A stretch of 64,000 nt of DNA, from assembly GCA_019359375.1 (NCBI GenBank), contig JAHHHL010000001.1:62001-126000 (forward strand), written 5' to 3'. This DNA comes from Lyngbya sp. HA4199-MV5 (lineage in GTDB: Bacteria > Cyanobacteriota > Cyanobacteriia > Leptolyngbyales > Leptolyngbyaceae). Below are positions 7,177-61,850 of the stretch, one piece after another; position 1 is the stretch's first letter; each line of letters begins with the position of its first letter. The notes under the pieces were generated by a model, which saw nothing but the letters and a program-made list of their open reading frames with translations, did no database searches and was not told the DNA's origin. Made by a program: the position numbers and the translations under genes.

Positions 7177-9345
7177 ATGAAATTATTGACGAAAAAGCGT
7201 GGTTTGTTGGCAGTGGCGATCGCGCTCTTTCTTGTGATCTGTCACTATGGACAAAGTTGCTCCTTATCCATCGCCATGACTGCCCCTCCCAAACCGTTTG
7301 TCTATCCTCAACCCCGCAAGGCGAATCAGGTCGATAACTATCACGGTACGCAGGTTGCCGACCCGTACCGCTGGCTCGAAGATCCCGATGCGGATGAAAC
7401 CAAAGCCTGGGTTGAAGCAGAGAATAAAGTGACGTTTGGGTTTCTGGAGCAAATTCCCGCGCGCGATCGCCTCAAGCAGCGCCTGACGGAACTGTGGAAC
7501 TATGAAAAGTACGGCATTCCGTTTAAGCAAGGCGACCGCTACTTTTACTTCAAAAACGATGGGTTGCAGAACCAGAGCGTCCTCTACACATTAAAGTCTC
7601 TGGATGATGAACCCGTTGTCTTGCTCGACCCGAACACCTTGTCCGAAGACGGCACCGTTGCGCTATCGGGATTGTCTGTGAGCGAAGATGGACGCTACCT
7701 CGCCTATGGCTTGTCTACCTCCGGTTCCGACTGGCAGGAGTGGAAGGTGCGTGAGGTTGAGAGCGGCAAAGATACGGACGATCGCGTGCAGTGGGTCAAA
7801 TTCTCCGGTGCCGAATGGACACATGACGGCAAAGGCTTTTTCTACTCCCGCTACGATGAGCCGAACGAAAAGTCCAAGCACGAAGACGTTAACTATTTCC
7901 AGAAGCTCTACTACCATCGCCTCGGCACCCCGCAAAACGACGATACGCTGATTTACGATCGTCCCGACCAAAAAGACTGGGGCTTCAACGGTGGCGTAAG
8001 CGAAGATGGACGCTTTTTGATCATCTCCGTCTGGCTAGGCACCGATCCGCGCAATCTGGTGTTCTACAAGGATTTGTCTGTTGCCAATGCCCCGATCGTC
8101 GAACTCATCAATACCTTTGAAGCCAACTACAGCTTCATCGACAATGAGGGCGATCGCTTCTGGTTCAGCACCGATCTGGAGGCACCGCGCAGTCGTGTGA
8201 TTGCGATCGATACTAAAAAGCCCGATCGCGACCACTGGCAAGAAGTCATTCCTCAAGCGGCGGAAACCCTCGAAGGCGTAGGCATTCTCAACAACCAGTT
8301 CGTCGCCTCCTACCTCAAAGATGCTCATAGTCAGGTGAAGCTCTTTGACCTGAACGGCATGCCCATTCGTGAGGTTAACTTTCCTGGATTTGGCTCTGTC
8401 GGCGGTTTTGGTGGTAAACGCCACGACACCGAAACCTTCTACAGCTTCACCAGCTTCACCACTCCCGCCACCATCTATCGCTACGACCTGGTGAAAAACG
8501 AAAGCCGCCTCTTCCGCCAGCCCAACGTAGACTTTAACCCCGACGATTACGAAACCAAGCAAGTCTTTTACCCCAGCAAAGACGGCACCCAGATTCCCAT
8601 GTTCATCGTCCACAAAAGAGGACTGGTGCTGGATGGGAAAAACCCCACCTATCTCTACGGTTACGGTGGTTTTGGGGCTTCCCTGACACCGAGTTTTTCC
8701 GTCAGCGCTCTCGTCTGGTTAGAAATGGGCGGCATCTTCGCGCAACCAAACTTGCGCGGTGGCGGCGAATACGGCGAAGACTGGCATCAGGCAGGCACGA
8801 AGCTGAAAAAGCAGAACGTGTTTGATGATTTCATCGCGGCAGCAGAATGGCTGATTGACCATAAATACACCTCATCCAAAAAACTGGCGATCGCAGGCGG
8901 CAGTAACGGCGGCTTACTCGTCGGTGCCTGCATGACCCAACGCCCCGATCTCTTTGGTGCTGCCCTCCCTGCCGTTGGCGTACTGGATATGCTGCGGTTC
9001 CACAAATTCACGATCGGCTGGGCGTGGATCTCTGACTACGGCACACCCGAAAACCCAGAAGAATTTAAAGCACTCTACGCTTACTCGCCGCTGCACAACC
9101 TCAAAGCTGGGACTGCCTATCCTGCCACGCTGATCACTACAGCCGACCATGACAATCGCGTCGTTCCCGCTCACAGCTTTAAATTTGCTGCGGCCCTCCA
9201 AGCGGCCCATGAAGGTGACGCGCCTGTGATGATCCGCATTGAAACGAAAGCAGGACACGGTGCAGGCAAACCCACTGCCAAAATCATCGAAGAAAGCGCC
9301 GATAAATGGGCATTTTTGGTGAAGGTACTGGCGATCGACAGCTAG
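7177..9345 (+). CDS. Prolyl oligopeptidase (S9A family), probably exported
   Basis: A 722-residue serine peptidase that cleaves short peptides after proline. The beta-propeller N-terminal half contains the family signature DPYRWLEDPDADETKAW. The C-terminal alpha/beta hydrolase domain has the nucleophile in AGGSNGG (Ser576), the Asp region TADHDNRVVP (about 655-664) and the His in KAGHGAG (His694). Residues 1-33 form a hydrophobic leader (KKRGLLAVAIALFLVICHY), so it may be secreted or periplasmic. Its 3' end is echoed by a decayed copy at 9944-10045 on the far side of the toxin-antitoxin pair. Confidence 0.93.
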   Translation: MKLLTKKRGLLAVAIALFLVICHYGQSCSLSIAMTAPPKPFVYPQPRKANQVDNYHGTQVADPYRWLEDPDADETKAWVEAENKVTFGFLEQIPARDRLKQRLTELWNYEKYGIPFKQGDRYFYFKNDGLQNQSVLYTLKSLDDEPVVLLDPNTLSEDGTVALSGLSVSEDGRYLAYGLSTSGSDWQEWKVREVESGKDTDDRVQWVKFSGAEWTHDGKGFFYSRYDEPNEKSKHEDVNYFQKLYYHRLGTPQNDDTLIYDRPDQKDWGFNGGVSEDGRFLIISVWLGTDPRNLVFYKDLSVANAPIVELINTFEANYSFIDNEGDRFWFSTDLEAPRSRVIAIDTKKPDRDHWQEVIPQAAETLEGVGILNNQFVASYLKDAHSQVKLFDLNGMPIREVNFPGFGSVGGFGGKRHDTETFYSFTSFTTPATIYRYDLVKNESRLFRQPNVDFNPDDYETKQVFYPSKDGTQIPMFIVHKRGLVLDGKNPTYLYGYGGFGASLTPSFSVSALVWLEMGGIFAQPNLRGGGEYGEDWHQAGTKLKKQNVFDDFIAAAEWLIDHKYTSSKKLAIAGGSNGGLLVGACMTQRPDLFGAALPAVGVLDMLRFHKFTIGWAWISDYGTPENPEEFKALYAYSPLHNLKAGTAYPATLITTADHDNRVVPAHSFKFAAALQAAHEGDAPVMIRIETKAGHGAGKPTAKIIEESADKWAFLVKVLAIDS

Positions 9346-9435: not shown

Positions 9436-9648
9436 ATGGCAACCTCCACGTCTCAACACTTGCTAGATTCCTTTGAGCAACTATCAGACGCTGAAAAGCA
9501 GCAGGTTGCTATTGAGATTCTGCGTCGTACCCTCAGCCTCGACATTCCTGAACTTTCGGCAGACGAATTGACGCTAAGTGCCGAAGCGATTTTCTTGAGT
9601 CTTGACGAAGAAGAGGCAGCCTATGAGCAGCAGTCCGAGTCGAGGTGA
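9436..9648 (+). CDS. Antitoxin of a MazF-type module
   Basis: A 70-residue acidic helical protein (LLDSFEQLSDAEKQQVAIEILRRT) of the addiction-module antitoxin type common in cyanobacteria. It overlaps the downstream toxin gene by 26 nt, the usual toxin-antitoxin arrangement in which translation is coupled. Such antitoxins bind the toxin and often the shared promoter. The identification rests on context and composition more than on a catalytic motif. Confidence 0.75.
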   Translation: MATSTSQHLLDSFEQLSDAEKQQVAIEILRRTLSLDIPELSADELTLSAEAIFLSLDEEEAAYEQQSESR

Positions 9649-9940
9649 AGTCTGGCTGGTTGATCTAGGCTATGTGGCGAAAGTGAGACCGTGTTTAGTG
9701 ATCAGCATTCCGGTTTTGGATCGCGATCGAGCGCTTGTCACGCTGGTGCCTCATACAACGCGAGCAAGAGGATCAAGATTTGAAGTGGATACAGGAGTCA
9801 AGTTTCTACGTGCAGGAGTCTTTGATGCTCAAAATCTGGTCACAATTCCCTACGTGAAGCTGATTAAGAAACTTGGAGTCTTATCATCCGAGCAATTGCC
9901 ACAGGTGGAAGATGTTGTTTGTTTATGGCTTGGTTTGTAA
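9623..9940 (+). CDS. MazF/PemK-family endoribonuclease toxin
   Basis: A 105-residue protein starting MSSSPSRGEVWLVDLGYVAK (ATG at 9623; an upstream start would be out of keeping with the family). Features of the MazF/PemK fold are GEVWLVDLG at the N-terminus, RPCLVIS, the VTLVPHTTRARG strand-turn and the C-terminal DAQNLVTIPYVKLIKKLG. Members cut mRNA. It is paired with the antitoxin immediately upstream. Confidence 0.88.
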   Translation: MSSSPSRGEVWLVDLGYVAKVRPCLVISIPVLDRDRALVTLVPHTTRARGSRFEVDTGVKFLRAGVFDAQNLVTIPYVKLIKKLGVLSSEQLPQVEDVVCLWLGL

Positions 9941-9943
9941 TTA

Positions 9944-10045
9944 GAACCAAAGCAAGACACAGCGAGGCAAACCCACCGCAAAACCATCGAAGAAAGCGCT
10001 AGTAAATGGGCGTTTTTGATGAAAGTGTTGATGATCGAAAGCTAC
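9944..10045 (+). pseudogene. Decayed copy of the prolyl oligopeptidase 3' end
   Basis: Bases 9944-10045 align with the last about 100 nt of the peptidase gene (9241-9345), including AACCATCGAAGAAAGCG and TAAATGGGCGTTTTTG. In translation it reads TIEESASKWAFLMKV against IIEESADKWAFLVKV in the intact gene. It has point changes and a small indel and no start. It lies just beyond the MazF pair, so the pair is bracketed by two copies of the same gene end. Confidence 0.88.
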
Positions 10046-35501: not shown

Positions 35502-35631
35502 CTAGGGCGTGTCATCAATTAGCTCCGAAACCTTGCAATATCAGCAGTGTCACGCCCGTCCCAACACACCGGGCTAGGGGCTGGAACCCTTACTGCAAAC
35601 AATGTGTAGAGTAATTGATGACAGCCCCTAG
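35502..35631. mobile_element. MITE-like element, copy A (reverse orientation)
   Basis: A 130-bp element with CTAG at both ends. It begins CTAGGGCGTGTCATCAATTA and ends with the complementary TAATTGATGACAGCCCCTAG. Inside is a second CTAGGGGCTG/CAGCCCCTAG pairing, so it can fold as a multi-stem hairpin. It carries no coding potential. Further copies are at 36933, 53602, 59090 and 61504. Confidence 0.88.
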
Positions 35632-35647
35632 CGATGCCGTTTGGCGT

Positions 35648-36304: not shown

Positions 36305-36932
36305 CGTATTTTCTCCAAAGTGCAAGATTGATGCTCTCGTTTCCAATGAACGCAATAAGTTTCTGAGTGGACTGTGTTGTTGGCTGTTAACTCACTTCGA
36401 CCACTTCACTCAGCCCAGGTTAAAACCATTCCCAATGTACTCTTCAGAAATCCTTGAACAGGATAATCCCTAGAAAACTTAACTCACGAAAAGGTGTGGA
36501 TAGAAGCGTGCAAAAGCGGTAGCACACGAATAGCAGCAAGCCAGAGACATATCATTGCTTACAGCAATAAGACAGTGCGGTCTTAATAGCGGCGACGCTG
36601 CTTTGTAGCTTGAGTCAGAAAAAGCTAACAGTTAAACAGTTCATGAAAGAACCCTATGCACGCATTTGAGCGCTCTCAATCAGCACGATTGGAGGTCAAC
36701 TCGTTTGTTTAATGACTCAGCACTTGAAAAGATTCAGCACTTAGAAAGAGCAATCAGGACTTTTTCTCCTGTTTGAACATTAAGATTGATAAACCCCTGC
36801 CAGTATGAGCTGTATCCACAGAAAGCCCCTGACTTCAGTAAACGCGACATGAAGACGTTTGAAGTTAATAAAAATTTATGTTGAGGTTAATGCTTTTGCT
36901 GTCTTGCAACAGATTCACAAAGACGGCAATTA
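36305..36932. other. AT-rich intergenic region without a recognisable gene
   Basis: About 630 bp between the membrane-protein start and MITE copy B. It includes direct repeats of TCAGCACTT(G/A) (near 36718 and 36735). No ORF with a start signal, tRNA or clear terminator was seen. Confidence 0.6.
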
Positions 36933-37063
36933 CTAGGGGCTGTCATCAATTACTACTACACGTTAGTTGCAGCAAGGGTTACAGCCCCTAGCATCATGTG
37001 TTGGGACGGGCGCGATCATGCCGATACCGTAGGGTTTTGAAGCTAATTGATGACGCGCCCTAG
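36933..37063. mobile_element. MITE-like element, copy B (forward orientation)
   Basis: 131 bp, CTAG to CTAG, with the same outer inverted repeats as copy A but in the opposite orientation. Its last four bases (37060-37063) include the TAG stop codon of the CPBP protease gene on the minus strand. Confidence 0.88.
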
Positions 37064-40535: not shown

Positions 40536-41903
40536 ATGCCGACTGAACTGCTTCAACAAGTACGAGTGATCGATCCGGCTTCAGGTACCGATCGCGTGGC
40601 GGATGTCCTAATAGGGGATGGCGTGATCAGCGCGATCGCAGACAGCATCTCCGACTATCCCAGCGACACTCATGTGCAGAACTGTCAGGGATTGATTCTC
40701 GGCACAGGCTTGGTTGATCTCTACAGTCATTCGGGCGAACCAGGCTTTGAAGAACGCGAAACCCTGCAATCCCTTCTCAGTTCAGCAAGTGCGGGTGGCT
40801 TTACGCGCATCACCATCCTGCCAGATACCAAGCCCGCGATCGACAACCCCGGTAGCGTTGCCTGGGTGCGAAGTAGGGGAACTGGGAATAGGGGACAGGG
40901 GACAGGTGCAGGGGAAGCAGAGGGAGCAGGGGAAGCAGGATTACACCCCACACCCCACACCCCACACCCCACACCCCACACCCCATACCCCACTCCCCAC
41001 CTCCACTGCTGGGGCGCACTCACTCAAGACGTTGCCGGACAGCAAATGACGGAACTGGGTGAACTGGCGGCAACAGAGATTGTGGGCTTTGCGGATGGTC
41101 GATCGCTCACAAACCTACTGCTCATTCGTCGCCTGCTGGAATATCTGAAGCCTGTTGCAAAACCGATCGCGCTGTGGGCAGCCGACCCGTTCTTAAGTGG
41201 CAACGGAGTCATGCGAGAGGGTCAGGCATCGCTACAGTTTGGCTTACCGGGCATTCCGACGATCGCCGAAACGGCACCCCTCTCAGCTTTACTGGAATGC
41301 ATTGAGGCGATCGGCACACCCGTTCATCTCATGCGGATTTCAACGGCGCGGGGAGTAGCGATGATTCAGGCAGCAAAAGCGCGTGGCGTGCCCATCACAG
41401 CCAGCACTACCTGGATGCATCTGTTGCTCAATAGTGAAGCGATCGGCGGCTATGATCCCAGCTTACATCTCGCGCCGCCTCTGGGTAATCCTGAGGATCA
41501 GGAGGCGCTGATCCACGCGGTCAAGGAAGGTGTCATTGATGTGATCGCCATCGACCACACGCCCTACACCTACGAAGAAAAGACGGTCGCCTTTGCCGAA
41601 GCACCTCCCGGCGCGATCGGGCTAGAGTTCGCGTTGCCGTTGCTCTGGCAGTCACTGGTCGAAACACGCAAATGGTCAGCCCTGGATCTGTGGCGCTCTC
41701 TCAGCCACCAACCATCTCTCTGCTTGCAGCAAAAACCTGCCACGATCGCCCCCGGTCAACCCGCCGAACTCACCCTCTTCGATCCGCAGCAGGTCTGGAC
41801 AGTAGAACCGCGATCGCTCAAATCCCTCGCTGCCAACACACCCTGGCTTGGACGAACAGTGACAGGGCGCGTAGTAAGAACGTGGATAGAGAAGAAAGGC
41901 TAA
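40536..41903 (+). CDS. Dihydroorotase-like protein lacking the HxH metal motif
   Basis: A 455-residue cyclic amidohydrolase-fold protein. The motif that in active dihydroorotases reads DxHVHxRxPG is DLYSHSGEPG here, so at least one metal-binding His and the substrate Arg are missing. Later motifs are partly kept (TILPDTKPAIDNPG, ASTTWMHLLL, IAIDHTPYTYEEK). It may be a regulatory partner of an active enzyme, as known for PyrC-prime subunits of aspartate transcarbamoylase, or be otherwise diverged. An in-frame repeat insert ([10 protein letters not shown] followed by [12 protein letters not shown] units) lies at about 113-150. The true pyrC lies 1 kb downstream. Confidence 0.8.
   Translation: MPTELLQQVRVIDPASGTDRVADVLIGDGVISAIADSISDYPSDTHVQNCQGLILGTGLVDLYSHSGEPGFEERETLQSLLSSASAGGFTRITILPDTKPAIDNPGSVAWVRSRGTGNRGQGTGAGEAEGAGEAGLHPTPHTPHPTPHTPYPTPHLHCWGALTQDVAGQQMTELGELAATEIVGFADGRSLTNLLLIRRLLEYLKPVAKPIALWAADPFLSGNGVMREGQASLQFGLPGIPTIAETAPLSALLECIEAIGTPVHLMRISTARGVAMIQAAKARGVPITASTTWMHLLLNSEAIGGYDPSLHLAPPLGNPEDQEALIHAVKEGVIDVIAIDHTPYTYEEKTVAFAEAPPGAIGLEFALPLLWQSLVETRKWSALDLWRSLSHQPSLCLQQKPATIAPGQPAELTLFDPQQVWTVEPRSLKSLAANTPWLGRTVTGRVVRTWIEKKG
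40872..41004. repeat. In-frame STRR arrays inside the dihydroorotase-like gene
   Basis: GGGGACA/GGGAATA heptamers, then GGGGAAGCAGAGGGAGCA, then eight CCCCACA/CCCCATA heptamers give a coding insert of about 45 residues with no frame break. Confidence 0.88.
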
Positions 41904-42915: not shown

Positions 42916-44259
42916 ATGGTAGCCAATTCTGCGCTTATAGTCCGTCACGCTCGTATCCTGCTGCCCGATGGCAACTTTATCATAGGCGATGTGCAGGTCA
43001 CTGGCGGGACGATCGTCCGCGTGATCGACGCTAGCAATTCAGCACAACCGATTTCGTCTCCAGGAAATGACACTATCGAGATAGACGCAAGCGGTTTAAC
43101 TTTGTTGCCGGGAGTCATTGATCCCCAGGTGCATTTCCGCGATCCGGGGCTGGAGCATAAGGAGGATCTGTTCACGGCAACCTGTGCCTGTGCCAAGGGG
43201 GGTGTCACCTCCTTTCTGGAAATGCCTAATACGAAACCATTGACAACCACACAGGCAACCCTGAACAGCAAACTGCAACTTGCGGCTCAAAAGTGCTTGG
43301 TGAACTACGGCTTTTTCATCGGCGCCACCCCAGAGGTACTGCCAGATTTGATTCAGGCAAACCCAACACCGGGCATCAAGATCTTTATGGGGTCAATGCA
43401 CGGACCCTTGCTGAATGACCAGGAAGAAGGGCTGGAAAAAATCTTTGCCTATGGCGATCGCCTCATTGCCGTCCATGCCGAAAACCAGGCGCGAATTACA
43501 GAACGGCGGCAGCAGTTTGCAGGCATCACCGATCCCGCGATTCATTCTCAAATTCAAGACAATCAGGCAGCTTTGGAAGCGACTCAACTGGCGATGAAGC
43601 TGTCGAAAAAATATCAGCGGCGACTCCATATTCTGCACATGTCCACGGCTGAAGAAGCCGATTTGCTGCGAGAAGATAAGCCCGCATGGGTAACGGCAGA
43701 AGTCACACCCCAGCATTTGTTGTTGAATACCAGCGCTTACCAAACGATCGGCACCCTGGCGCAAATGAACCCACCGCTGCGATCGCCCCACGATAACGAA
43801 GTCCTCTGGCAAGCCTTGCTGGATGGCGTAATCGACTTCATTGCGACCGATCACGCACCCCACACGCTGGAGGAGAAAGCGCAGACCTATCCCAACTCGC
43901 CCTCTGGAATGCCCGGTGTTGAAACTTCGCTGCCTCTAATGCTCACCCAGGCAATGCAGGGACGCTGCACCGTTGCCCAGGTCGCCAACTGGATGTCTAC
44001 TGCCGTCGCCAAAGCCTATCGCATTCCAAACAAAGGCGCGATCGCTCCTGGCTATGATGCCGATCTGGTACTGGTAGACCTGGACACCTATCGTCCCGTA
44101 TTGCGCGAGGAACTCCAAACCAAATGCAAGTGGAGTCCCTTTGAAGGCTGGAATTTAACAGGCTTTCCAGTCGTGACGATCGTTGGTGGGCAGGTGGTGT
44201 TCGATCGGGGCACCATTCACCCAACCGTGCGCGGTCAGGCTCTCCGCTTTGATGCCTAA
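42916..44259 (+). CDS. pyrC: Dihydroorotase
   Basis: A 447-residue enzyme of pyrimidine synthesis, closing carbamoyl-aspartate to dihydroorotate. The start at 42916 (MVANSALIVRHARILLPDG) follows the tandem repeat. Motifs: LPGVIDPQVHFRDPGLEHKED (with Gln in place of the first His of the usual HxH, a variant seen in one branch of the family), MPNTKPLTTTQATL, the Lys region IKIFMGSMHG, LHILHMSTAEE, TAEVTPQHLLL and IATDHAPHTLEEK. All catalytic elements beyond the Gln are present, unlike the paralogue at 40536. A diverged copy of its 3' end lies at 46518-46594. Confidence 0.88.
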   Translation: MVANSALIVRHARILLPDGNFIIGDVQVTGGTIVRVIDASNSAQPISSPGNDTIEIDASGLTLLPGVIDPQVHFRDPGLEHKEDLFTATCACAKGGVTSFLEMPNTKPLTTTQATLNSKLQLAAQKCLVNYGFFIGATPEVLPDLIQANPTPGIKIFMGSMHGPLLNDQEEGLEKIFAYGDRLIAVHAENQARITERRQQFAGITDPAIHSQIQDNQAALEATQLAMKLSKKYQRRLHILHMSTAEEADLLREDKPAWVTAEVTPQHLLLNTSAYQTIGTLAQMNPPLRSPHDNEVLWQALLDGVIDFIATDHAPHTLEEKAQTYPNSPSGMPGVETSLPLMLTQAMQGRCTVAQVANWMSTAVAKAYRIPNKGAIAPGYDADLVLVDLDTYRPVLREELQTKCKWSPFEGWNLTGFPVVTIVGGQVVFDRGTIHPTVRGQALRFDA

Positions 44260-44329
44260 TCGCTGCTTGTTGATCGAGCATGGTTTTCGACTTTCTACAA
44301 TGAAGTGAAGACAGCAGAGAGGCGCAACG

Positions 44330-44980
44330 ATGGCTCAAGTGAGCGGCGTAACACAAGCGATGACCAATCTCAATGTGGCGCATCGCAAGCTGGGGCTACA
44401 TCCGAGTGATGATCCAGAGTTCTTTGGGGAATGGTTGCAGGGTTTGCCAGAGCTAACGGCAGTGGAGCGGACAATGCTCGATCGCCTGAGGCAACGCTAT
44501 TTCTATTACGCCGCCGATGGGGCAATCACCGAAGGCACGATCGATGTTGTCCTGATATCACCGTTGCTAGAGCTTTTAGGGCTATGTGATTCACCCTATA
44601 AAATTCGTGGCGAAAAACTGGTCAAGATTGAGATTGAAAGCGAAGCAGAGATTTTGGAAGGCTTTATCGATGCGCTGGTGGTGCAGGAGCAATTCTGGCT
44701 GATTTTGATTGAAGAAAAGCGGTATGGGTTTAGTGTGATGCAGGCACTACCGCAAACGTTGGCGTACATGATGGGTCAATCATTGACCGAGACCCCTGGG
44801 TTTGGGCTAATTACAACAGGAGAGGATTACTTATTTGTGAAGGTGGATCGGCAATTGCACACGTATGGTTGGTCCAATAAATTTACGCTCTCGAATCCCC
44901 AACGCAACGAGCTTTACGATGTGGTGCAGGTAATGAAACGGCTGATTGGCTCGGTCAATATCGTTCAAGAAGCATCATGA
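44330..44980 (+). CDS. PD-(D/E)XK restriction endonuclease-like protein
   Basis: A 216-residue protein. The nuclease core is suggested by ILEGFIDALVVQEQFWLILIEEKRYGFS, with the Asp and the ExK spaced as in HsdR N-terminal-like and related PD-(D/E)XK nucleases, followed by QALPQTLAYMMGQ. The N-terminal 60 residues are helical (LTAVERTMLDRLRQRY). Similar stand-alone genes occur in cyanobacterial accessory regions. It is the first gene of the insert between the two pyrC 3' ends. A later start at 44360 (MTNLNVAHRKL) is possible. Confidence 0.65.
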   Translation: MAQVSGVTQAMTNLNVAHRKLGLHPSDDPEFFGEWLQGLPELTAVERTMLDRLRQRYFYYAADGAITEGTIDVVLISPLLELLGLCDSPYKIRGEKLVKIEIESEAEILEGFIDALVVQEQFWLILIEEKRYGFSVMQALPQTLAYMMGQSLTETPGFGLITTGEDYLFVKVDRQLHTYGWSNKFTLSNPQRNELYDVVQVMKRLIGSVNIVQEAS

Positions 44981-45077
44981 GTCCAAGTTAAAGCACTCGG
45001 CGATCGCGCTGCTGTAGCAATTGGCGTTAGTACCAACCCATAACGAGAAACGATCGCACAATGAACCCGCGATCGCA

Positions 45078-45148
45078 TGAAGCAGGATATTGTGTTGGCG
45101 TATCAATCGCCCTATATGCGGCAATTTAGCAAGTTTGCCGTGAGTTGA
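45078..45148 (+). pseudogene. Isolated 3' end of an xisI gene
   Basis: The frame reads KQDIVLAYQSPYMRQFSKFA and VS before TGA, nearly identical to the C-terminus of the intact XisI at 46136-46471 (one Lys for Glu). Upstream xisI sequence is absent. Confidence 0.88.
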
Positions 45149-45240
45149 CGATGCGGCTGACTGGAGTGCTTCACCGCTGCCACCAGGAGTGAGATACGCT
45201 AAACGTGATGACCCAAGCCGTTTGAGAGAGGGCTGAGACA

Positions 45241-45963
45241 ATGGTGAATCAAATCATTTTGGATTGGGAACCGCCCCTACCACCCACAGATCTGATTTTT
45301 GATGATGGAGTCCCGTTGGAGAGCAACCGCCACCGCATTGCCATGAATGTGTTGATTGACTCAGCGCTGCAAGCTTTGTCAAGCCGATCGGACGTTTTTA
45401 CGGGCGGCAATATGTTTGTCTACTACAGCCGCAACCAGGCAATGAACCGGGACTTCCGTGGACCCGATTTCTTTGTAGCGCTGGATGTAGATGGCAGCCG
45501 CGATCGCCGGGGCTGGGTAGTGTGGGAAGAAGAGGGACGCTACCCGGATGTGATTGTAGAACTGATGTCTCCCAGCACGGCCAAAGTCGATCTCGGTGTA
45601 AAGAAAGACCTCTACGAACGAACGTTTCGCACGGCTGATTACTTTGTCTATGACCCCTTTGACTCCACTTCGTTGCAGGGCTGGCATCTGGATGCCGCGC
45701 AACGCTATCAACCGCTGGAACTGAACGATCGCGGTTGGCTCTGGTGCGAAACGTTGCAACTGTGGCTGGGCACCTGGGAAGGCAACATCCAACGGGAACC
45801 ACCCACCGGAACCTGTCCTTGGCTACGGTTCTACGATCGCGATGGAAACCTGGTGCTGTTGCCTGAAGAAGCGGCGCAACGACAGGTTGAACAGGAACGG
45901 CAACGGTCTGATCGACTGGCTAATCGTCTGCGAGAACTGGGTGAAAATCCAGAGGTTCTGTAG
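45241..45963 (+). CDS. Uma2-family (DUF820) endonuclease-like protein
   Basis: A 240-residue member of the Uma2 family. Core motifs are FRGPDFFVALDVDG, the acidic VIVELMSPSTAKVDLGVKKDLYERTF (with the E and later K/D of the PD-(D/E)XK fold) and YFVYDPFDSTSLQGWHL. The C-terminus is a charged helix (QRQVEQERQRSDRLANRLRE). It lies between a stranded xisI 3' end and a truncated xisH, so it appears to sit within a broken-up xisHI region. Function of the family is unknown. Confidence 0.85.
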   Translation: MVNQIILDWEPPLPPTDLIFDDGVPLESNRHRIAMNVLIDSALQALSSRSDVFTGGNMFVYYSRNQAMNRDFRGPDFFVALDVDGSRDRRGWVVWEEEGRYPDVIVELMSPSTAKVDLGVKKDLYERTFRTADYFVYDPFDSTSLQGWHLDAAQRYQPLELNDRGWLWCETLQLWLGTWEGNIQREPPTGTCPWLRFYDRDGNLVLLPEEAAQRQVEQERQRSDRLANRLRELGENPEVL

Positions 45964-46013
45964 CGATCGCCAGAGACGGCACCATGAGTAGGAAACCTGT
46001 CTGGGCTTGAGTG

Positions 46014-46148
46014 ATGTCTGGAAGGGATATTTTTATCTATGAGTCTTTTTTCTCACGACAACTGCCGCAACTGAGCATCCAAGAGTATCAGTTGAAGCTG
46101 CTGGTGTTTGACCCTGAGCCGGAGGTGATTGTGCAATGGCGAAATTAG
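46014..46148 (+). pseudogene. Truncated xisH (3' end only)
   Basis: A 44-codon open frame reads DIFIYESFFSRQLPQLSIQE, then YQLKLLVFDPEPEVIVQWRN, then TAG. This is the C-terminal signature of XisH proteins, which normally have about 135 residues and immediately precede xisI. A TGA at 46008-46010 closes the frame upstream and the N-terminal two thirds is missing. It overlaps the xisI start by 13 nt, as in intact pairs. Confidence 0.8.
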
Positions 46149-46471
46149 ACCAGTATCGGCAAGTGGTGCAGCAGGTGTTATTGCAGCACGCTCAGATTAA
46201 GCCTGCCTATGGTGAGATTGAACGCCAAACGCTCTTTGATGTGGAGCGCGATCATTATCAGGTGGTGAATACAGGCTGGGAAAACCGTCGCCGCGTCTTT
46301 GGCTACCTGATTCATGCGGACATCAAGGGCGAGAAGATTTGGATTCAGTATGACGGCACAGAGATAGGGGTGGCGAATGAACTGGTAGAAGCAGGCATCC
46401 CTAAGCAGGATATTGTGTTGGCGTACCAGTCACCCTATATGCGGCAGTTCAGCGAGTTTGCAGTGAGTTGA
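46136..46471 (+). CDS. xisI: XisI-family protein (fdxN element excision controlling factor)
   Basis: A 111-residue protein of full family length (MAKLDQYRQVVQQVLLQHAQ; FDVERDHYQVVNTGWENRRRVFG; IWIQYDGTEIGVANELVEAG; C-terminal YQSPYMRQFSEFAVS). XisI with XisH was described as controlling excision of the nifD/fdxN elements in Anabaena, but XisH/XisI pairs are scattered widely in cyanobacteria in accessory settings. Here its partner xisH is truncated, so the pair is probably not functional as such. Confidence 0.92.
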   Translation: MAKLDQYRQVVQQVLLQHAQIKPAYGEIERQTLFDVERDHYQVVNTGWENRRRVFGYLIHADIKGEKIWIQYDGTEIGVANELVEAGIPKQDIVLAYQSPYMRQFSEFAVS

Positions 46472-46517
46472 CGATCGCGCTGCGATGCGATGAAAGTTAT
46501 TGCTGACTGTTGCGAAC

Positions 46518-46594
46518 GATCGTGGGTGGTGTTCGATCATGTCACCATCCACACAAACGTGCGCGGTCAGGCTCTCCGCTTTGACGGCTGATCG
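46518..46594 (+). pseudogene. Diverged copy of the pyrC 3' end
   Basis: The frame reads VVFDHVTIHTNVRGQALRFD, Gly, TGA, against VVFDRGTIHPTVRGQALRFD, Ala at the end of the intact pyrC (about 44194-44259). The frame and stop position are preserved. It closes the 2.3-kb accessory insert that begins right after pyrC. Confidence 0.88.
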
Positions 46595-51247: not shown

Positions 51248-51291
51248 ACGATCGCGTCTACTACCTACGCGATTTGCCAGTAGATTGAACG
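51248..51291 (+). repeat. Left copy of a 44-bp direct repeat flanking a two-gene cassette
   Basis: ACGATCGCGTCTACTACCTA and the following CGCGATTTGCCAGTAGATTGAACG. In one frame it reads NDRVYYLRDLPVD and then TGA, which looks like the end of a protein. The partner is at 52064-52107. Confidence 0.75.
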
Positions 51292-51375
51292 TGCCTCACG
51301 CTACCAAACTACACGCTTTGAAATTGGTGATCGCCACCCAAGCTAAAATGGAAAGGTCACAACAACGTCAAACTG

Positions 51376-52063: not shown

Positions 52064-52107
52064 GCGATCGCGTCTACTTTCTGCGCGATTTGCCAGTAGA
52101 TTGAACG
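52064..52107 (+). repeat. Right copy of the 44-bp direct repeat
   Basis: GCGATCGCGTCTACTTTCTG and the following CGCGATTTGCCAGTAGATTGAACG; in the same frame it reads CDRVYFLRDLPVD and then TGA. Differences from the left copy are few and mostly conservative. A weaker third relative (SDRIYFLRPL) lies at about 53466-53500. Confidence 0.75.
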
Positions 52108-52123
52108 GGCGATCGTCTCCTCC

Positions 52124-53360: not shown

Positions 53361-53601
53361 TTGTTCTTTAGCGAGTAAGTCACGTTAAAGCGTTAGCAAC
53401 CCTAGTTCAAAGATTTTGTTATTTTCTTTGAATGGTGTTTTGCAGCCATCCATTGCCAAAGCGATGGGAGCGATCGCATCTACTTCCTGCGCCCTTTGGT
53501 AAAGGAACAATCCTGATTTTGGGAGCCTTGCGTGGCAAAATTTCTAAGCAGGGCAATCTTCTCTGTTGTGTAAGCAGTGGAACGTTTGCCATCATCTTTT
53601 G

Positions 53602-53732
53602 CTAGGGGCTGTCATCAATTACTACTACACATTACTTGCAGCAAGGGTTCCAGCCCCTAGCTTGGTATGTTGGGGCGGGCGCGATCATGCTGATACCGCA
53701 AGGTTTTGGAGTTAATTGATGACGCGCCCTAG
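53602..53732. mobile_element. MITE-like element, copy C (forward orientation)
   Basis: 131 bp, CTAG to CTAG, closest to copy B. It begins CTAGGGGCTGTCATCAATTA and ends TTAATTGATGACGCGCCCTAG minus its first base, with the internal CAGCCCCTAG pairing arm. Confidence 0.9.
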
Positions 53733-56217: not shown

Positions 56218-58911
<2,694 letters not shown>

Positions 58912-59089: not shown

Positions 59090-59219
59090 CTAGGGCGTGT
59101 CATCAATTAGCTCCGAATCTTGCGGTATCAGCATCATCGCGCCCGCCCCAACTCACCAGGCTAGGGGCTGGAACCCTTGCTGCAATTGATGTGTAGTATT
59201 AATTGATGACAGCCCCTAG
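59090..59219. mobile_element. MITE-like element, copy D (reverse orientation)
   Basis: 130 bp, beginning CTAGGGCGTGTCATCAATTA and ending TTGATGACAGCCCCTAG. The end at 59216-59219 overlaps the TAG stop codon of the P450 gene on the minus strand. Confidence 0.9.
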
Positions 59220-60601
59220 CCTCTAATGCCCACGGCTGAAGGAGAACTGCGTCGTGCGATCGCGCTGAGCCGAAAGTTTTTGGAGGGCACAAACGTAATG
59301 CCGCGCCGTTCTGGTTTAACGGTACCTTGCGTTGTTGCGACCAACTCATACCGAGCCAGAATCGTTCCGAGCACCAGCTTCATCTCATAGAGCGAGAAGG
59401 CAGCACCAATGCAACTCCGTGAGCCACCGCCAAAAGGTAGAAACTCGGAGGGCGAAAATTTTTGGTGCAGAAAGCGGTCTGGTTGAAACTGATCAGGATT
59501 GGAATAAGTTTGAGCGCGGCGATGCGCCAGGTAAATGCAGGGAATGACAATAGTGCCAGGTTCAAAAGCGTAACCGCCAATTTCCACAGGCTCTTTGACC
59601 TTGCGCGGCTGGGAGATGAGCGCGATCGGGTAAAGCCGCAGGGACTCTTTGCAAACGGCTGTTAAGTAGGGAAGCTGAGCCAGTCGATCGGGGTTGGGAT
59701 CATGTCCCAATGGCTCCAGTTCTTGCCGGAGTCGCTTCAACACCGATCGCTCTTGATGCACCCAATAAAACGCCCAAGAAAGCGCGGATGCCGTCGTTTC
59801 ATGCCCCAACAGCAGCAGCGTCATGAGCTGATCGCGCAGTTCCTCATCGGTCATGCCCTGCCCTGCCTCATCCCGTGCCGCTAGCAGCAAGGTCAAAACA
59901 TCCTCCCGCGAAGGGTCAAACTGCGATCGTCGCGCTCGAATTTCGGCATACACCAACTCATCAATTTGCTGTTGTTGTCGCAAAAACGCACCCCAGGGAC
60001 TCCAGCTACCCAGGTTTTGTTGCAGCAGGGGAAAGAAAAACTGGCTGGAGTAGAGGGGCGATGTCACCGACTCTAGTAGGGTGTGAAGCAATTGCTTGAG
60101 CTGGTGATAACGCGATCCAGGAGTCATTCCAAACACCACGCGCAAGATCACCCGCAGCGAAATTTCAGAGGTAGTATCCCGAATGGAAAAGGGCTGATGC
60201 AGCGACCAGTCTGCAATGACTTGCCGGGTCAGATCGCAGATGAGTTGCCCATAGGTACGCATCCGATCGCCATGTAGCGGCGGCATGAGAAGCTGTCGTT
60301 GCTGTTGGTGTGGCTCACCATCGAGCATCATGAGCGAGCGATCGCCCGTCAATGGTCGAAACACATGAGTGACCTTACCCAACTCAAACCGATCGGCTGG
60401 AGCGGTAAAAATCTGCGCGATCGCGGCTGGATTTCCAGTAAAGACCACAGGCGGCGATTGCCAGCCCAGCACTCTGGTCGTAAAGGTGTCACCATATCGC
60501 TGGGTGCAGCGTTCAAGAAACTCAATAGGCTGAGCAACCAGCGCCAGGGTTTGGAGCAGCGAGGGTTGGTGTAACCCTTCTGGTAAAGTAGTCAAACTCA
60601 T
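59216..60601 (-). CDS. Cytochrome P450, CYP110-like
   Basis: A 461-residue soluble monooxygenase. Motifs: the I-helix LLLLGHETTASALSWAFYWV, EXXR in KESLRLYPIALISQPRKV, and the haem loop FLPFGGGSRSCIGAAFSLYE with the haem-binding Cys397. The N-terminal PEGLHQPSLLQTLALVAQPI and the overall pattern match CYP110, the P450 family widespread in filamentous cyanobacteria, with members acting on fatty acids or terpenes. The last residues (SSPSAVGIRG) run into a MITE whose terminal CTAG gives the stop. No terpene synthase or ferredoxin gene is adjacent. Confidence 0.92.
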   Translation of the reverse strand: MSLTTLPEGLHQPSLLQTLALVAQPIEFLERCTQRYGDTFTTRVLGWQSPPVVFTGNPAAIAQIFTAPADRFELGKVTHVFRPLTGDRSLMMLDGEPHQQQRQLLMPPLHGDRMRTYGQLICDLTRQVIADWSLHQPFSIRDTTSEISLRVILRVVFGMTPGSRYHQLKQLLHTLLESVTSPLYSSQFFFPLLQQNLGSWSPWGAFLRQQQQIDELVYAEIRARRSQFDPSREDVLTLLLAARDEAGQGMTDEELRDQLMTLLLLGHETTASALSWAFYWVHQERSVLKRLRQELEPLGHDPNPDRLAQLPYLTAVCKESLRLYPIALISQPRKVKEPVEIGGYAFEPGTIVIPCIYLAHRRAQTYSNPDQFQPDRFLHQKFSPSEFLPFGGGSRSCIGAAFSLYEMKLVLGTILARYELVATTQGTVKPERRGITFVPSKNFRLSAIARRSSPSAVGIRG

Positions 60602-61449: not shown

Positions 61450-61503
61450 GACAAACTGCCCAATGCCACTTTTTAAGGATCGCGGCTTAAATAAGATCGA
61501 ACA

Positions 61504-61634
61504 TTAGGGCGCGTCATCAATTCAGCTTCAAAACCTTTGGTATCAGCATTGTCGCGCCCGTCCTAACACACGGAGCTAGGGGCTGGAACCCTTGCTAAAA
61601 GGTATGTGTAGTCGTAATTGATGACAGCCCCTAG
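61504..61634. mobile_element. MITE-like element, copy E (reverse orientation)
   Basis: About 131 bp. The left end is TTAGGGCGCGTCATCAATTC (one base off the usual CTAG) and the right end is TAATTGATGACAGCCCCTAG. It lies 54 bp after menH. Confidence 0.85.
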
Positions 61635-61850
61635 TCTTCTGGAGGGGCGATCGGTCGTCCGCCCGTACAAGAAAGTAGCGAAATGATTGAATTCTCATTC
61701 CTAAGGTAGGTACAACAAATTTTCAAGCTTCTAAAGAATTTTGTCTGTTTGACCGTCCAGCCAGTCATTTCTTCGGGTAAAACGGTAAGCAGCACGAGAA
61801 TGTCTCAGGAAGCAAAGGCTATTCTGGTTGCATAGGCATGGCATAAACGC

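Follow-up and report, generated by a model that had tools for sequence, protein, structure and literature searches.

Accessory modules between two copies of the pyrC 3′ end in a cyanobacterial genome, probably gained by recombination with related strains

Introduction

How does the end of a gene come to lie a second time beyond a set of unrelated accessory genes, while the gene itself stays whole? The question is raised by 64,000 nt of Lyngbya sp. HA4199-MV5 (the window; part of contig C55 in a 6.9-Mb cyanobacterial genome, labelled G000), in which a 2.3-kb segment with a nuclease-like gene, a Uma2 gene and xisI is placed between the dihydroorotase gene pyrC and a short copy of the pyrC 3′ end. 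The segment is probably, although by no means certainly, made up of accessory modules that were stacked at the pyrC 3′ end through recombination with related strains. Genus-wide comparisons comprised seven genomes, the own genome and congeners labelled G001–G006, two of which are taken to be Tildeniella nuda (G002) and Leptolyngbya sp. FACHB-321 (G003). The names yjbQ, dnaN and WD40 used below are tentative and come from reading the sequences.

The displaced 3′ end of pyrC

The intact pyrC gene (42916–44259, forward strand; 447 aa, Pfam Amidohydro_1) is the sole full-length copy found. Its last 67 nt (44193–44259) are the source or the counterpart of a displaced, apparently decaying 3′ end with stop codon located at 46525–46594 on the same strand. 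The two are aligned as an ungapped direct repeat of 70 nt and 87% identity (44193–44262 with 46525–46594; BLAST E 3e-16 when 164 kb of that contig were searched), which bears out the bracketing of the segment by two pyrC 3′ ends proposed in a first-pass annotation. The remnant is not a dispersed repeat: the sample used for repeat copy number (1.33 Mb of own DNA and 1.19 Mb from relatives) had no matches other than pyrC ends and the remnant itself. In the seven whole genus genomes the matches were again pyrC ends only, the one exception being a broken relic of the gene in G001. Chance similarity as the origin of the copy is ruled out by the E values and the copy number.

The first-pass annotation had also considered that the fragment might be the end of a distinct full-length paralogue nearby. 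This source is excluded by the search of the own genome, which yielded pyrC, a dihydroorotase-like gene of 34% identity (40536–41903), the remnant and one marginal match.

The reading frame of the remnant is open for 22 codons, so the earlier remark that the frame was preserved despite divergence of the DNA holds as a description, while selection is not implied by it. The remnant departs from the intact end at 9 of 66 nt, by which 5 codons are changed non-synonymously and 3 synonymously, and an 8-nt gap was seen by eye directly upstream; intact pyrC compared with that of G006 shows 2 non-synonymous and 6 synonymous changes. Because of the non-synonymous excess and the gap, the kept frame is no sign of selection. 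Judged on these few sites, protein-level selection on the remnant looks relaxed, and the remnant looks to be decaying.

Genes between the two pyrC ends

All features of the segment are on the forward strand. The first is a gene for a 216-aa nuclease-like protein (44330–44980), with a 72% DNA homologue at G000:C88:106027–106639. The PD-(D/E)XK label it had been given is favoured by one weak PADLOC match (PD_DExK, E 9e-5) and not by Pfam or NCBIfam, in which the protein had no match. After it comes a displaced 3′ end that belonged to an older copy of xisI (45080–45159), an 88% direct repeat of 46403–46482 over 80 nt, with 92.5% similarity over 67 nt to xisI of FACHB-321. The next genes are Uma2 (45241–45963; Pfam PF05685, E 1e-15) and a xisH with an in-frame internal deletion and 44 aa left (46014–46148). 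DNA matches to both ends of FACHB-321 xisH, at 45986–46034 and from 46036 onwards, delimit this deletion, which was read by eye; the intact relative belongs to PF08814. The last gene, xisI (46136–46471), is intact (PF08869, E 4e-45, profile positions 1–110 of 110). Uma2 and xisI had thus been recognized correctly from the start, while the deleted xisH and the displaced xisI end had been missed. With Uma2, XisI, a deleted XisH and a nuclease-like protein, and no methyltransferase among the proteins scanned, the insert is not a restriction-modification system.

Downstream of its pyrC, FACHB-321 has a GAF-like gene (by eye), after which come intact xisH and xisI. Among 44 genomes, own included, only FACHB-321 shares the own xisI type (93%), the other matches listed being at most 68%. 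The xisHI DNA of the two strains is 91% identical over 443 nt, and pyrC only 82%. As indicated by this difference, xisHI seems to have moved between the own strain and FACHB-321 after their pyrC genes diverged. An intact XisI and a xisH with matching ends are reminiscent of the xisH/xisI of cyanobacterial fdxN-type elements; unlike those elements, the segment has no fdxN gene or recombinase, and the middle of xisH is lost.

Integrase-borne elements classically rebuild the 3′ end of the gene in which they integrate and displace the old end, so that the gene gets a new tail and the old one is found past the insert, as is the case here. A decayed element of this type, with the pyrC 3′ end as its attachment site, is nevertheless highly improbable. 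No recombinase was found among 10 proteins scanned at 42.1–49.3 kb or among 6 at 49.5–58.9 kb, where a Clp ATPase accounts for weak IstB and TniB matches. Moreover, the inserts are small, and the same layout recurs at many unrelated target genes with unrelated modules (see below), unlike the products of one site-specific enzyme.

Recurrence of the pattern at other genes

The succession of gene, module and remnant of the gene 3′ end was found again at a peptidase gene, a yjbQ-like gene, dnaN and a WD40 gene, and at pyrC of Argonema antarcticum. In these cases the copied part corresponds to the last 60–105 nt of the gene, or to a decayed portion of them, in the same orientation and ending near the stop codon. 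The direct repeats are 70 nt long for pyrC, 102 for the peptidase gene, 98 for dnaN, 97 for the WD40 gene and 105 for yjbQ.

The peptidase gene of the window (7177–9345, forward strand), compared in the seven genomes, had been put forward in the first-pass annotation as a companion to pyrC, and it is one. Its displaced 3′ end (9945–10044, forward strand; 81% over 102 nt to 9243–9344) is positioned past a pair of genes at 9436–9940, on the same strand, formed by a PemK-type toxin gene (9602–9940; PF02452, E 7e-12) and a small upstream partner without Pfam match (9436–9648). The peptidase-tail copy is present in three of the seven genomes (own, G001 and G006), and G005 has a 21-nt match; the insert is Uma2 in G001 and Uma2 with DUF29 in G006. 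In the own genome, the peptidase gene and pyrC, both with displaced 3′ ends, are ~35 kb apart, and in G002 the peptidase gene is convergent to pyrC with only genes of toxin-antitoxin (TA) type between them. The other three inserts of this genus are all from G002: BrnT with BrnA at the yjbQ-like gene (the BrnA match being below the Pfam cut-off), Uma2 at dnaN, and an open reading frame (ORF) of 140 aa without assigned family at the WD40 gene.

To what extent pyrC itself is affected was seen from 86 pyrC loci (two or more genomes being represented twice, and the own window excluded). A second match was present at two of them, one of which (L053) is internal; the locus of A. antarcticum (L065) provides the sole displaced 3′ end (42 nt, E 4e-4; confirmed by eye), and an ORF of 136 aa without assigned family is inserted there. 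One case in 86 loci leads us to reject a widespread property of pyrC 3′ ends.

The recurrence of short tails also bears on the possibility that the remnant is the relic of a second pyrC, duplicated or transferred to a downstream position and then deleted except for its 3′ end. Deletions of this kind do have parallels. The relic in G001 (G001:C28:56187–56589) retains ~300 nt of the start and 64 nt of the end of a genus-type pyrC, apart from the working pyrC of that genome, which is of a distant type (G001:C57:3973–5325) and suggests gene replacement; xisH in the window likewise lost its middle. However, no trace of pyrC beyond the last 70–85 nt was found near 46.5 kb, and the same short tail length is seen again at other genes. 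We therefore consider a deleted second pyrC improbable.

Resident and incoming gene ends

Which of the two tails is original could be addressed at yjbQ and dnaN, where intact and displaced tails have different nearest relatives. G006 has an insert-free yjbQ, with no second tail copy detected in 1.5 kb. The end of this gene and its flank match the G002 remnant and its flank over 136 nt (87.5%), unbroken across the stop codon; in the flank alone, 28 of 32 bases agree with the flank of the remnant, and 12 of 32 with that of the G002 intact gene. This unbroken match identifies the displaced yjbQ copy in G002 as the resident end in its original place. As read from these alignments, the TA pair is an addition upstream of the resident end, together with the tail now on the gene. 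Compared with G003, the G002 intact tail agrees in 91 of 105 positions and the remnant in 82 of 105.

In G002 dnaN, the sequence is 100% like that of G003 from −120 to −60, while the last 60 nt agree with G004 in 58 positions (97%) and with G003 in 47. G004 carries the same Uma2 after dnaN, and similarity of tail plus module amounts to 84% over 809 nt, compared with 75% in the dnaN body. Such a pattern suggests that a crossover took place ~60 nt ahead of the stop codon and that the tail and the module arrived together. A mosaic of tail and body origin is seen in G002 dnaN and is suggestive at yjbQ; at the ends of the own pyrC and the own peptidase gene no clear switch of affinity was seen.

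These observations are relevant to an insertion with long target duplication. According to this explanation, a mechanism of the module itself or driven by a nuclease makes a staggered break, the ~100 bp target (here the pyrC 3′ end) is copied, and gene ends prevail among the cases seen because selection removes insertions that fall within genes. For restriction-modification systems, insertion accompanied by long duplication of the target is described in PMC3874152, PMC1643837 and PMC3031569, which cite Nobusato et al. 2000 and Furuta et al. 2010; as stated in the review PMC3874152, the duplications of some systems are variable, on the order of 100 bp, and the movement of these systems is often tied to genome rearrangements. 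The likeness lies in direct copies of ~100 bp (60–105 nt here) around small modules of nuclease or toxin type, with an insert-free site in a relative. Nuclease-type and TA genes are indeed among the inserts, the copy lengths are uniform, and in G002 a HicA/HicB-like pair (by eye) is embedded between 103-nt direct repeats of 82.5% with no evident gene end (G002:C9, near 58027–58395).

On the other hand, the modules observed here are Uma2, xisHI, DUF29 and TA pairs, and the copied part is the 3′ end of a gene. Target duplication predicts copies that are initially identical, whereas the yjbQ and dnaN copies have different nearest relatives and look like different alleles, and the own peptidase remnant resembles G002, G003 and G005 more closely than it does its intact counterpart in the own genome. 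Remnants of older modules, namely a Uma2 end in G006 and the xisI end in the window, are also not target copies. On balance, target duplication appears to us a doubtful, but not negligible, explanation of the pyrC locus.

Layering of modules

The order of components in G001 is peptidase gene, Uma2 and remnant, and in G006 it is peptidase gene, broken DUF29, the last part of Uma2 and remnant. The two genomes share 226 nt at 75.7% through the Uma2 end, the remnant and its flank. The common Uma2 end and remnant indicate that a later module came in at this gene end as well and reduced the earlier one to its 3′ end. By comparison with G006, the xisI remnant at 45080 fits a cut-back older module.

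Frequency of displaced gene ends

The first-pass annotation had expected displaced 3′ ends to be enriched genome-wide, which is not the case in the own genome as sampled (661 genes in 964 kb). At a score of at least 30, a 3′ end copied downstream was recorded for 4 of 661 genes. Two of these (C55 230484 and C88 101122) were set aside, since their mid-gene matches pointed to similar genes lying side by side, so that 2 of 661 remain, pyrC and the peptidase gene, both in the window. The mirrored class, with 5′ ends copied upstream, comprised 3 of 661 at the same score, and the random-pair null gave 2 and 1. Although the own genome has 71 Uma2 matches and 5 PemK matches, a strong genome-wide mode is unsupported in it. 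The suggested repeated mode of module gain at gene 3′ ends is partly supported: the pattern recurs in the genus and in Argonema, and is rare in the own genome as sampled.

The wider test included 2,740 ORFs (2,134 + 606) in ~3.7 Mb of the own genome, congeners and other cyanobacteria. The class of 3′ ends copied downstream had 12 rows, 6 of them over at least 60 nt. After removal of L049, whose ORF consists of simple repeats, five such cases were left: own pyrC, own peptidase gene, and the yjbQ-like gene, dnaN and WD40 gene of G002. Among 10 rows of 5′ ends copied upstream, 4 were of at least 60 nt: a 100% tandem repeat 16 nt away, a copy 22 nt away, L080, which is between neighbouring ORFs, and part of an SDR-like gene, copied 596 nt upstream; L080 and the 22-nt case were judged from the rows only. 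Furthermore, 3′ ends were copied upstream in 3 rows. One row is own xisI and the others are from G002 C9, where one is the intergenic repeat around the HicA/HicB-like pair. In 4 rows, 5′ ends were copied downstream. One of these four is a 102-nt, 98% copy of a gene 5′ end past an HNH-like gene (G002:C38:45520–45921 and downstream), a young insertion of the mirrored kind. A bias of displaced copies to gene 3′ ends is suggested by these counts, not proven. Selection could add to it, because gains upstream would separate a gene from its promoter.

Proposed course of module gain

We propose a homology-anchored gain of modules, starting from the observed copies, the kinds of modules, the recurrence at other genes, one insert-free site and one chimeric gene tail. 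First, an incoming pyrC tail with a module attached would pair by homology with the resident pyrC 3′ end. The far, non-homologous end would then be joined illegitimately ~60–105 nt upstream of the resident stop codon. As a result, the resident gene would be completed by the incoming tail, the module would come next, and the resident tail would be left downstream to decay. If a later arrival used this gene end as its anchor too and was joined inside the older module, it would trim that module to its 3′ end, and the xisI remnant in the window and the Uma2 remnant in G006 may be examples of such trimming. Anchoring by homology combined with an illegitimate far joint accounts for inserts that follow stop codons, for a gene that stays whole, for a displaced end that may be another allele, and for older modules represented by their 3′ ends. 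Recurrence at unrelated genes with unrelated modules is counted in favour of this course. That pyrC took it is argued by analogy with the other genes; the nature of the right-hand joint and natural transformation as the carrier are likewise inferred.

Homology-facilitated illegitimate recombination is known from laboratory assays, as described in PMC3240628; in the present case it is deduced from sequences. Among the open-licence titles listed on TA modules with target duplication or direct repeats, or on DUF820/Uma2 in cyanobacteria, none dealt with displaced gene 3′ ends. TA modules and DUF820 genes among the hox genes of Synechocystis are mentioned in a passage of PMC4963859.

Several observations weigh against homology-anchored gain. 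The intact pyrC end, the remnant and the G006 end are about equidistant (8, 9 and 10 differences in 66 nt), and while an insert-free relative exists for yjbQ (G006), the flank of the pyrC remnant is kept by no relative in the seven genomes, which makes native and incoming pyrC copies indistinguishable. At yjbQ, the intact tail is almost as near to G006 (90 of 105) as to G003, and in the last 56 nt of the dnaN remnant 49 positions agree with G004 and 46 with G003, supposedly the native type. Finally, the narrow range of copy lengths (60–105 nt) is unexplained by a random right-hand joint, and some TA pairs between long direct repeats that are not gene ends fit target duplication better.

Surroundings and other repeats

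Gene order from 37 to 44.26 kb is kept in G002, G003 and G006, and conservation ends at the pyrC stop codon, past which the DNA is different in each of the three. Downstream of the remnant there is a ParE-type toxin gene, followed by more variable genes and, from ~53.7 kb, by a block common to G006. As ordered by eye, the 37–44.26 kb block is inverted relative to its neighbours in G006. The own genome, also read by eye, shows an inversion of a larger region with respect to the block at 59–63 kb.

A dispersed element of ~131–139 nt was noticed at 35502–35640, 36923–37063, 53601–53732, 59090–59220 and 61501–61637 of the window, and its copies adjoin ends of rearranged blocks. It has ~80 matches in 1.33 Mb of the own genome and 1 in 1.19 Mb of congeners, indicating lineage-specific expansion. 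At G000:C55:258398–259905, two TA pairs (one PemK-like, the other by eye VapC/PIN-like) are interleaved with a ~75–90 nt sequence present in three direct copies; these ~75-nt repeats are not gene ends and, by eye, have inverted termini. In addition, a 46-nt direct repeat (91%; 51249–51294 and 52065–52110), with only two copies in the own sample, brackets a 146-aa ORF without Pfam match.

Implications

The spread of TA pairs and Uma2-type genes without a transposase is poorly understood, and gains of this kind leave displaced gene tails as a footprint. Differences in allele between intact and displaced tail can separate homologous docking from true target duplication, and the yjbQ and dnaN cases make this comparison feasible on public genomes. 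A more general idea, which we regard as speculative and unlikely, is that gene 3′ ends serve as docking sites for small recombinase-free accessory cassettes that travel with the last 60–105 nt of their host gene. If this were true, a cassette would use ordinary homologous recombination to dock in a related strain at the corresponding gene, which would stay whole, and the two tail copies would let the cassette leave again. TA pairs, Uma2, DUF29 and xisHI would then be passengers made mobile through gene-tail homology, and what has been reported as long target duplication in restriction-modification systems could be the same phenomenon.

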